Of a stretch of DNA of 34,885 nucleotides, positions 28,821 through 33,928 are shown piece by piece; the stretch's first letter is position 1; every line of letters starts with the position of its first letter. The position numbers and the translations under genes are program-made. Location: positions 1-34,885 of the forward strand of contig JACMKK010000061.1 of NCBI GenBank assembly GCA_014380115.1, given 5' to 3'. The notes beneath the pieces are model-generated. The model did not search any database, had not been told where the DNA came from, and saw only the letters and a list, made by a program, of their open reading frames with translations. This DNA comes from Luteimonas sp. Its GTDB lineage: Bacteria; Pseudomonadota; Gammaproteobacteria; Xanthomonadales; Xanthomonadaceae.

Positions 28821-30062
28821 TCAGAAGTCGCGATAGGGCCCTTGCCGGATCCACAGCGTGGCCAGCCATTTCTCGCCGCGCTCGACAGGCAGGCCGGCGT
28901 GCAGGGAATCCGGATCGGGCGAACCTTCGGGCAGCAGGTTCGCGAAGGCGATCGCCGATCCAGCCGTCGGTGCGATGGTGAGGCCGGCAGCGGGGAAAAC
29001 GGTTTCACCGCCGGCTTCCACGTCGTTGAGGTACGCGCAGATCGTGCCGGCGCGGTCGCCGGCCTGCGGACGGTTGTCTGCGAGTGCGGCGGAGGGCAGG
29101 TAATCGCGATGCGGGTGGTACTGCTCGCCGGGCGCGTAGCGCAGGACGATCAATGGTTCGGCGAAGACCAGCTCGACACCTGCCGCGGTCGCCATCCGCG
29201 CCTGCACCAGGCGCAGCGCCAGGTCCTCCTGCAGCGGATCGAAACTCGCATCCTGGCTCGTGCGGATGGCGTTGAAGGATTTCGCGCCGCTCTGCGGATC
29301 CAGCGTATGCGAATGGGAGAGTCTTGGCCGCGCTGCGGCCATGAGCAGGCGGCACTCGTCGGCGGACAGCAGGTTGTCGATCGCGCCGAGCTTGGGTCGA
29401 TCGGACAACCTTTTCACGGGCGGCTGCTGCCAGGTTTCCTCCAAAGCCAGGCGTTCGCGGACCAGGCCCAGCGCAAACGGGCGCACGGAACAGGCGGGCA
29501 GGGAATCGGATGCCGAAGCCTGGTCATCGCCGGCAGCTGCCTGCATCCGCGCCGCCAGCAACTGGGCTGCGACGGGATCGCCGACGCCGGCCGCCTGCCT
29601 CAGCAGGTCCATGCACAAGACCTGGTCCTGCTCGTCGTTGCGGCGTCCGAAGTGGATGGCGGCCGTAGTCAGGGCCGGGGCATAGCCCGCGTTCACCGCC
29701 AGCAACAGCCTCTGGTTGATGCGTGCGTCGCGTTTGACCGCCTGGTTGCCCACCGAAATCATCGCCAGCAGGTAGGCGGCGATGACGTTGCCGGCAGTTT
29801 CGGCCTCTTCCAGCAAACGAACGCCCTGTCCGGGATTCGAGGCCGTGCCCACGCCGTACAGCAACATGCGCGCGGCTTCGATCCGGGCGCGATTGTGCCC
29901 GGCGGCGGCGGCCTGGATGAAAAGTGGAAACGCCTCTTCCATCGCCATACGCGCCACCAGCGCGGTCGCCAGGGCATAGATCTTGGCGGGATCGGCGGAC
30001 GCGGCTTCGGCGCGTAGCGACGCCAGGGCGTCGTCGGGTGTCGGGTTCGGTTCGTTGCTCAT
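28821..30062 (-). CDS. Sel1-repeat / 2-oxoglutarate-Fe(II) dioxygenase (prolyl 4-hydroxylase-like) fusion
   Basis: 413 residues from ATG 30062; the track begins at a TTG two codons earlier. The N-terminal half has TPR/Sel1-like helical pairs (AEEAFPLFIQAAAAGHNRARIEAARMLLYGVGTASNPGQGVRLLEEAETAGN; QVLCMDLLRQAAGVGDPVAAQLLAARM). The C-terminal half is a P4Hc domain with Fe ligands His318 and Asp320 (HPHRDYL) and His388 (DSLHAGLPV). The 2OG-binding Lys398 and TICAYLNDVEAGGETVFP are also present. It should hydroxylate a protein or peptide, with the repeats holding the substrate or a partner. No signal peptide, so cytoplasmic. It stands alone, with 189 bases to the leucine dehydrogenase gene downstream of which I see nothing. 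Confidence 0.9.
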   Translation of the reverse strand: MSNEPNPTPDDALASLRAEAASADPAKIYALATALVARMAMEEAFPLFIQAAAAGHNRARIEAARMLLYGVGTASNPGQGVRLLEEAETAGNVIAAYLLAMISVGNQAVKRDARINQRLLLAVNAGYAPALTTAAIHFGRRNDEQDQVLCMDLLRQAAGVGDPVAAQLLAARMQAAAGDDQASASDSLPACSVRPFALGLVRERLALEETWQQPPVKRLSDRPKLGAIDNLLSADECRLLMAAARPRLSHSHTLDPQSGAKSFNAIRTSQDASFDPLQEDLALRLVQARMATAAGVELVFAEPLIVLRYAPGEQYHPHRDYLPSAALADNRPQAGDRAGTICAYLNDVEAGGETVFPAAGLTIAPTAGSAIAFANLLPEGSPDPDSLHAGLPVERGEKWLATLWIRQGPYRDF

Positions 30063-30108
30063 CGGCAAAGCGTAAACGATGCGGTGGCTTCGGGCTCGGC
30101 CGGGGAAT

Positions 30109-31810: not shown

Positions 31811-33928
31811 ATGGCCATCGCCAGGAACACCCTACGCAGCTCGCGATCGGGACAAGCCATCACTGCACGCCTGCTCGACGCCCGCCCCGATACCGCCGAC
31901 TTCCGCGACCGCATGTTCACTCCGACGCTGATCGACGTGCCGACCTCGTGGCCGCTGTCGCACCACACTCGGCTCGCGGTGCCGATCCTCGACCAGGGCG
32001 ACGAAGGCGCCTGCACCGCCTTCGGCCTGGCGACCGTCGCGCACACCTTGCTGCGCACGCGCATCTCCGGCGCCAATCGCACGCGCGTCAGTACGCGCAT
32101 GTTCTATGACATGGCACGGCGCTACGACGAATGGCGCGGCGAGAGCTATTCCGGATCGAGTTGCCGCGGCGCGATGAAAGGTTGGCACCACCACGGCGTC
32201 TGCTCCGAAGAGACCTGGCCCTACACGCCCGGCAGGGAAGGCGCGCTCGAGCCTTATACCGAAGCGCGCGCCCGCGATGCCACGCGACGTCCGCTCGGGG
32301 CGTATTTCCGTGTCAACCACAAGGACCTGGTCGCGATGCACGCCGCGTTCGCCGAAGTGCGCGTGTTGTACGCGTCCTGCGGCGTGCACGAAGGCTGGAT
32401 CGAGCCGCCGGCGCATGGGCGCATCGCCTGGCGGCAGCAGGAGGAACTCGGCTACCACGCCTTCGCCATCGTCGCTTACGACGACCGCGGCTTCTGGATC
32501 CAGAACTCCTGGGGCCGCAGCTGGGGCCACAAGGGTTACGGCTACATCAGCTACGACGAATGGCTCGAGCGCGGCACCGACGTCTGGGTCGCGCGGCTCG
32601 CGGTGCCGGTGCGGCTGCAGGGTGCGCAGGCGACGGCGGTCAGCCATTCGGCGCTGGCGCGACAGGCGACCGGCTATTCGCAGGCCGACCTGCGCCCGCA
32701 CATCGTCAGCCTCGGCAACAACGGCCTGCTGCGCGACGAGGGCCGCTTCGGCACGACGCGCGAAGACGTGCGCAACCTGCTGCGCAAGGACCTGCGCGCC
32801 ACCACGCGTGGCTGGAAGAAGAAGCGCGTGCTGCTGTTCGCGCACGGCGGCCTGGTGCCGGAGCAGACCGCGATCCAGCGCGTCGCCGACCTGCGCGAAG
32901 CATTATTGCCGCAGGAGATCTATCCCCTGTGCTTCATCTGGAAGAGCGATTTCTGGACCACGCTCGGCAACCTCCTGCGCGATGCCACCCTGCGCCGCAG
33001 CGAGGGCCTGCTCGACCGCGCCAAGGAACTGCTGCTCGACCGTCTCGACGACACGCTCGAGCCGCTCGCGCGCGTGATGGGCGGCAAGGCGGTGTGGGAC
33101 GAGATGAAGGAGAACGCATTACTCGCGACCACCGCGGTCGAACGCGGCCTCGATGGCGGCCTGCAGGAAGCCGGCGGCGCGGCGCAGGTCGCGCGTCTGC
33201 TCGGCGAATGGATGAGCGAGGATCCGTCGGTCGAATTGCACCTGGTCGGTCACAGCGCAGGTTCGATCCTGCTCGCACCGATGCTGCAACTGTTGACCAC
33301 GCGCGGACAAGTCGCGATGGGACCTGCGCGCGGCATGCAGGGCATCGGCGTCGACGTGGCCAGCGTCAACCTGTGGGCACCGGCGATCACGGTCGACCTG
33401 TTCCTGCAGGCGTATGCGCCCGCGATCGAAGCACGCAGCGTCGACCGCGCCTGCCTGTTCACGCTCAGCGACAAGGCCGAGAACGACGACCACTGCGCCG
33501 GCGTCTACCACAAGTCGTTGCTGTACCTCATCGCGCACGCGTTCGAGGCGCAGGCGCGCAGCTGGATCGACCGCCGCCTGCGCCAGGGCACGCCGATCGT
33601 CGGCATGGCGCGCTTCGTAGAAGCGAAGGAAGTCGAAGACCAGGCGCTCGGCTACGAAACCCTGCGCAAGCTGGTGCGCGACGGCCGCCTCGGCCACGTG
33701 CAGTCGCCAACCGCCGGCAAGCCCGAGGGCGCAGCCGACGCCGCCAACGCCACCAGCCACGGTGGCTTCGACGACGACCGCGCCACGATCAAGGCCACCA
33801 TCGCCCGCATCCTCGGCACGCGCAGTGCGCCGGTGCAGTTCGAGATCCGCCGCTCCGAAGCCGGCCTGGAAGACCGCCGCCGCATGCTGCAACGAGCGCT
33901 CTTCACCGAGCCTTTGTCGCGAGAGTGA
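31811..33928 (+). CDS. Papain-like (C1) cysteine protease fused to an alpha/beta-hydrolase-like domain
   Basis: 705 residues from ATG 31811, chosen because GGGAG lies 7 bases upstream; the track ORF extends 107 codons through the intergenic region. No signal peptide or membrane helix, so cytoplasmic unless exported by a dedicated system. Residues about 25-265 hold a full papain set: Gln62 and Cys68 (ILDQGDEGACTAFGLATV), His216 (GYHAFAIVAYDD) and Asn232 (WIQNSWGRSWGHKGYGYI), with no propeptide. Residues about 335-680 look like an alpha/beta hydrolase: LLFAHGGLVPE (HGG oxyanion loop, 345-347), YPLCFIWKSDFW, LHLVGHSAGSILLAPML (nucleophile Ser482). A candidate histidine, His650, is in SHGGFDDD. 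Substrates of both halves are unknown. GC and codon use match the neighbours. Confidence 0.85.
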   Translation: MAIARNTLRSSRSGQAITARLLDARPDTADFRDRMFTPTLIDVPTSWPLSHHTRLAVPILDQGDEGACTAFGLATVAHTLLRTRISGANRTRVSTRMFYDMARRYDEWRGESYSGSSCRGAMKGWHHHGVCSEETWPYTPGREGALEPYTEARARDATRRPLGAYFRVNHKDLVAMHAAFAEVRVLYASCGVHEGWIEPPAHGRIAWRQQEELGYHAFAIVAYDDRGFWIQNSWGRSWGHKGYGYISYDEWLERGTDVWVARLAVPVRLQGAQATAVSHSALARQATGYSQADLRPHIVSLGNNGLLRDEGRFGTTREDVRNLLRKDLRATTRGWKKKRVLLFAHGGLVPEQTAIQRVADLREALLPQEIYPLCFIWKSDFWTTLGNLLRDATLRRSEGLLDRAKELLLDRLDDTLEPLARVMGGKAVWDEMKENALLATTAVERGLDGGLQEAGGAAQVARLLGEWMSEDPSVELHLVGHSAGSILLAPMLQLLTTRGQVAMGPARGMQGIGVDVASVNLWAPAITVDLFLQAYAPAIEARSVDRACLFTLSDKAENDDHCAGVYHKSLLYLIAHAFEAQARSWIDRRLRQGTPIVGMARFVEAKEVEDQALGYETLRKLVRDGRLGHVQSPTAGKPEGAADAANATSHGGFDDDRATIKATIARILGTRSAPVQFEIRRSEAGLEDRRRMLQRALFTEPLSRE

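Follow-up and report, generated by a model that had tools for sequence, protein, structure and literature searches.

The window, a stretch of 34,885 bp from Luteimonas sp. (contig C559, from an assembly that is 88% complete with 3.5% contamination), contains on its forward strand at 31811–33928 a gene for a 705 amino acid fusion of a papain-like peptidase with an alpha/beta hydrolase (ABH). There is a GGGAG sequence 8 bases 5' of the ATG, and this start is also supported by alignment of the homologues; no sigma-70 promoter or Rfam RNA was found near the gene. Full-length homologues have 66–77% identity to the window protein. The dN/dS of the whole gene is 0.16–0.41 in nine Luteimonas-group pairs, and in the same pairs it is 0.06–0.30 for the papain half and 0.21–0.51 for the hydrolase half, such that purifying selection acts on both. 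Only C1, C1-like, and DUF900 domains are detected on the protein by Pfam, no NCBIfam family is assigned to it, and it has no match to a PADLOC model. The initial annotation of an intact papain set joined to a hydrolase half in one open reading frame is confirmed by Pfam, the homologues, conservation, and selection. The protein is not unique, many homologues being named 'C1 family peptidase' at NCBI; no paper describing a papain-ABH fusion was found in a limited literature search.

The papain domain

The protein begins with a variable, basic tail at residues 1–19 (31811–31867; pLDDT <50), followed by a C1A papain domain of the xylellain type at residues 20–265 (31868–32605), which matches Pfam Peptidase_C1 with E=2.9e-10. 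The nearest solved protein is xylellain of Xylella fastidiosa (PDB 3ois), a short C1A papain, both by sequence (E=2e-14) and by predicted fold (E=2.7e-14). The two share 27% identity in the fold alignment and the same N-terminal PDxxDxRD segment, which is conserved as RPDxxDxRD in the window protein, although xylellain is 291 amino acids long and does not have the alpha/beta-hydrolase half. Gln62 of the oxyanion hole (codon 31994–31996), the nucleophile Cys68 (32012–32014), the catalytic His216 (32456–32458), and the catalytic Asn232 within QNSWG (32504–32506) are invariant in all 24 diverse papain-bearing relatives aligned. The full Gln-Cys-His-Asn set that had been reported therefore stands, and the domain is a predicted peptidase that is apparently intact.

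By hydropathy, neither the window protein nor six relatives have the hydrophobic stretch at the N-terminus that is typical of signal peptides; within the first 50 residues of the window protein, the Kyte-Doolittle mean over 11 residues is at most 0.76, in agreement with the earlier reading of the protein as lacking an export signal. Signal peptides do occur in extracellular prokaryotic C1A enzymes (PMC10380794). A cytosolic papain without a propeptide had been considered unusual in itself; however, bacterial C1A peptidases of the xylellain type are typically short (PMC10380794). They usually have no propeptide, and therefore its absence is not a separate puzzle. The copy in Lysobacter enzymogenes (L005, 7845–8000) has a long N-terminal tail rich in Lys, Ala, Ser, and Pro, similar to histone H1, which is absent from the window protein.

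The alpha/beta hydrolase domain

Between the two enzymes is a linker of low model confidence, residues 266–292 (32606–32686; pLDDT <50 for 264–292), which may be a processing site. The hydrolase domain follows at residues 293–697 (32687–33901), as delimited by the model, fold search, profile, and a DUF900 match, which spans the nucleophile region with E=9.3e-6, above the Pfam cut-off. In an alignment of 28 hydrolase domains, Gly346 is invariant and His345, Gly347, Ser482, and His650 are kept in 25 or 26. The first three of these form the predicted oxyanion-hole HGG motif (32843–32851), Ser482 (codon 33254–33256; 26/28) is the predicted nucleophile in GHSAG, and His650 (33758–33760; 26/28), within (S/T)HGGFDDD, is the probable catalytic His. 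The triad acid may be Asp554, Glu557 (kept in 27/28), or Asp560 (26/28), all within 33470–33490 and after a predicted strand.

The full-length AlphaFold2 model is poor overall (pLDDT 66.6) and for this reason the hydrolase was modelled alone, which for residues 286–705 gave a pLDDT of 82.6 and a pTM of 0.84. In this model the HGG follows a core strand, Ser482 is in a strand-turn-helix elbow, and His650 is ahead of a late helix, adjoining residues 651–655; a helical insert of low confidence at residues 379–426 (32945–33088) is a possible lid. Matches in the PDB are mainly to alpha/beta hydrolases, including cutinases, lipases, and serine hydrolases, and are weak, the best having E=3e-4 with TM <0.5. 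A profile search of the domain against solved structures gave no significant relative. From conservation, DUF900, and the modelled elbow, the second half is predicted to be an alpha/beta hydrolase with a GxSxG nucleophile elbow and a conserved catalytic His, as had been read from the HGG, GHSAG, and SHGGFDDD motifs. Indeed fold prediction, which had been proposed as the means of disproving this assignment, returned an alpha/beta hydrolase, albeit through weak fold matches. In the distant members L025 and L070 the hydrolase Ser and the HGG motif have been lost, with the papain residues kept.

Chromosomal location and distribution

In Luteimonas, Lysobacter, and Vulcaniibacterium, the papain-ABH gene is located between the leucine-dehydrogenase region and a gene for a B12-binding protein similar to methylmalonyl-CoA mutase. 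The fusion is cleanly absent from four of the nine sampled Luteimonas genomes, in which a PLD gene and the B12-binding gene face one another directly, a few hundred bases apart, and it is therefore an accessory gene. Among good genomes, 28 of 179 from the taxonomic family carry a member of the protein family, of whatever architecture, as do 12 of 338 from the phylum sample. In these three genera the papain-ABH gene is an old, dispensable gene at a fixed site, and its stable position beside metabolic genes across the whole clade is unlike that of a mobile defence island. As a possible partner the divergent PLD gene was rejected, since it is missing in Lysobacter and persists where the fusion is absent. 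On the reverse strand of the window, at 28821–30068, is a 2OG-Fe(II) oxygenase with a weak match to Sel1-type repeats, which is also near the fusion in several relatives, though not in Lysobacter.

An HMM panel for caspase, trypsin, NucA, pYEATS, and YLATT found none of these near the papain-ABH gene in the window and eight relatives of the clade. Across whole assemblies, no caspase was found in the carriers of the genus, with the exception of one match in the window's own, partly contaminated assembly. The lack of conflict neighbours in Luteimonas and Lysobacter, together with the fixed site and purifying selection, is what would be expected if the clade used the enzyme for housekeeping or maturation, such as to turn over a particular protein or lipoprotein or for proteolysis under stress. 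Its absence from four of nine genomes of the genus argues against such a role, as do its patchiness in the phylum sample and the exchange of the protease partner among relatives, making this explanation unlikely, though of the alternatives it survives best. The initial annotation had looked to homologues of well-characterised housekeeping role as the sign of such a function, and none was found.

A family of shuffled domains

Pfam and profile searches place the ABH domain in five architectures: papain-ABH, muramidase-papain-ABH, GH19-papain-ABH, amidase-ABH-caspase, and stand-alone. The muramidase (PF11860) form is found in other genera of the Xanthomonadaceae and the GH19 form in L168 and L171, while in L028, L055, L056, L071, L072, and L164 the ABH is between an Amidase_2 and a caspase. 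Judged by these architectures, the window protein is one member of a shuffled ABH family. In a maximum-likelihood tree of 48 hydrolase domains, it belongs to a starred clade with Luteimonas and Lysobacter, which is nested in a clade with 100/100 support alongside R. gallicum, Sinorhizobium sp. B11, Nitrospira moscoviensis, and one GH19-bearing protein. The two GH19 fusions are in different clades of this tree, so a cell-wall domain has probably been gained more than once. A stand-alone ABH used as query had no match in phages. A full-length papain-hydrolase gene (L077, 4815–7208) is present on a 28 kb contig classed by IMG/VR as viral (putative).

The muramidase, GH19, and Amidase_2 domains fused in relatives might indicate an endolysin-like lysis enzyme, in which papain and hydrolase, with peptidoglycan hydrolase domains, dismantle the envelope of the cell itself or of its prey. 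Lysobacter are bacteriolytic, and Gordonia phages have a papain-like gene (L029, 5950–6627) flanked by those for the lysin A amidase and the holin, the lysin B gene following after a few others. That phage papain is, however, only 28% identical across 31% of the query, and the window protein has no peptidoglycan domain detected by Pfam, no signal peptide, and no holin neighbour, such that a role in lysis is doubtful and ranks next after housekeeping. Last, injection of the protein as an effector, through a type VI system or another contractile secretion system, is very improbable for this clade: the top, weak fold match of the hydrolase model is 4o5p, which we take to be the type VI phospholipase Tle1, and Tle1-like DUF2235 genes adjoin the relatives L018 and L167, but VipB is present in none of nine carriers checked (including the window's assembly, G000, 88% complete), the only genome that has it (G098) does not have the papain-ABH gene, and no type VI gene was recognized in the neighbourhoods examined, the HMM panel applied being one of conflict-type domains. 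The Tle1-like neighbour of L018 has no sequence match in the PDB.

Neighbourhoods of the relatives

The initial annotation proposed a survey of the neighbours of homologues, which has a divided outcome, with conflict-type genes beside some relatives and none from the HMM panel beside the Luteimonas and Lysobacter copies. In five of six cases (L196, L197, L198, L199, and L200, but not L195), a caspase gene comes immediately after the stand-alone ABH gene, and among these five loci there is pYEATS in two, trypsin-NucA in one, and trypsin-PLD in one. In G149 and G198, an amidase-hydrolase-caspase gene is in one operon with trypsin-NucA, and these are the sole caspase and the sole NucA of each genome. 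Papain-ABH adjoins GDSL-caspase in S. meliloti, GDSL-caspase, YLATT, and trypsin in R. leguminosarum, and a GDSL-caspase-M15 gene, the only caspase of its genome, in G430. In G294 the papain-hydrolase gene adjoins trypsin and haem peroxidase genes, and on a Palleronia plasmid a caspase match and the papain gene are close to each other on either side of the record start. In R. gallicum, close kin of the window subfamily within the 100/100 clade, papain-ABH is 5–11 kb from a set of ABH, caspase, and trypsin-NucA genes. The pYEATS, YLATT, caspase, and trypsin-nuclease neighbours are of gene types described as bacterial conflict systems, and are found in rhizobia and a few other genomes. Outside of the Luteimonas/Lysobacter clade, only about 5 of about 25 papain-ABH loci have a caspase within 10 kb.

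Two arrangements in these regions were also noted. In the Xanthomonadaceae loci L163 (4585–11512) and L162 (4626–11629), an amidase-hydrolase-caspase gene is with a gene for a 605–624 amino acid protein that has no Pfam family and with trypsin-NucA; this three-gene operon is a candidate defence operon. Within 20 kb of an R. gallicum plasmid (L197, 3382–23510), there are two papain-hydrolase genes of different subfamilies, DUF2272-SH3, trypsin-NucA, a caspase, and a stand-alone hydrolase.

Comparison with known conflict systems

Kaur et al. 2020 (PMC7159879) report that in VMAP systems an alpha/beta hydrolase invariably neighbours the caspase, a pairing also seen in the five stand-alone ABH genes that precede a caspase gene. 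Those pairs likewise couple a cysteine protease to an ABH, the hydrolases being likened here by their description, but in the window protein a papain replaces the caspase and the two are fused. In addition, the VMAP/MoxR/vWA core was not seen at the window locus, where the HMM panel covered caspase, trypsin, NucA, pYEATS, and YLATT. The trypsin-NucA system ('System 3') has EAD1-papain and EAD1-lysozyme effectors (Kaur et al. 2020, PMC7159879), and trypsin-NucA genes share loci with the relatives L162, L163, and L197. In contrast, the window gene stands alone, no NucA was found in its incomplete assembly, and no EAD adaptor was detected on the protein by Pfam, its N-terminal tail being 19 variable residues. 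Core conflict-system genes are in the same locus only for some relatives, again L162, L163, and L197, and not for the window; on gene context, the window protein cannot be counted in a named defence system.

In several antiviral systems a trypsin or caspase activates a gated nuclease, as shown experimentally in a 2025 study (PMC12799240). In Canu and other such nuclease-protease defence pairs, the protease activates a second enzyme via disordered loops, to which the window protein could be compared; their partner is, however, a metallo-beta-lactamase-fold nuclease, whereas here an ABH shares the chain with the protease, and gating is no more than an idea.

A possible role in conflict or cell death

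The best-supported of the several readings is that the protein works like a conflict effector, and we infer that it belongs functionally among bacterial conflict or cell-death effectors. More specifically, it would be a cytosolic effector unit of cysteine protease and ABH, to which a probability of a little under one half (about 0.48) is given. Consistent with this are the shuffling of the ABH module, the pairing of ABH and caspase genes, the empty site, selection on both halves, and the lack of an export signal. Because relatives swap papain for caspase, add domains that cut the cell wall, and sometimes adjoin defence genes, it is probably an as yet unstudied effector that damages cells under regulation. 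Narrower, and tentative, is the suggestion that it is the papain-run counterpart of the caspase/ABH pair, a self-contained cell-death or anti-phage protein on one polypeptide in a combinatorial family that adds cell-wall hydrolases. The initial annotation's guess at a toxic, defence, or cell-suicide protein under control fits the caspase replacements, the added peptidoglycan hydrolases, and those loci with pYEATS, YLATT, or trypsin-NucA.

The strongest objection to the effector reading is that most papain-ABH loci, including every one examined in Luteimonas and Lysobacter, have no recognizable conflict neighbour. Either the sensor is therefore at another location or the protein now has a different use; in this clade a sensor not adjacent to the gene could be intramolecular, encoded elsewhere, or lost.

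As an effector, the protein would combine a cysteine endopeptidase of the xylellain type, folded and ready, with a serine esterase or lipase that has the alpha/beta-hydrolase fold. The two most likely act as a single functional unit, with papain in the position that caspases usually occupy. A trigger, either an invader or stress, would lift its inhibition, possibly through a cut in the disordered linker (residues 264–292) or a shift of the 379–426 lid, and control may also lie in the xylellain-like N-terminal segment. The papain half might then cut cellular proteins or process its own chain, and the hydrolase half might attack lipids or esters, with arrest or death of the cell as the outcome.

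Bacterial caspases and trypsins are now recognized as immune proteases. If this proposal is true, a papain in their slot, fused to the hydrolase with which caspases pair, would extend the repertoire of immune proteases, and the protein would offer a one-gene system for how two cytoplasmic hydrolases are kept inactive and then released. Luteimonas and Lysobacter are bacteria of soil and water. In this family, a single set of modules connects peptidoglycan hydrolases and proteases with lipase-like enzymes, which provides, for Lysobacter, Nitrospira, and rhizobia, a concrete list of proteins that are candidates for lysis or defence.

Papain is also joined to trypsin in Paracoccus, in proteins with no detected hydrolase. 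There, the trypsin-papain gene (L026, 1–9662; L027, 1–9608) is oriented divergently to a conserved gene, whose product, of about 2,300 amino acids, has a likely signal peptide and is 59% identical between the two species.
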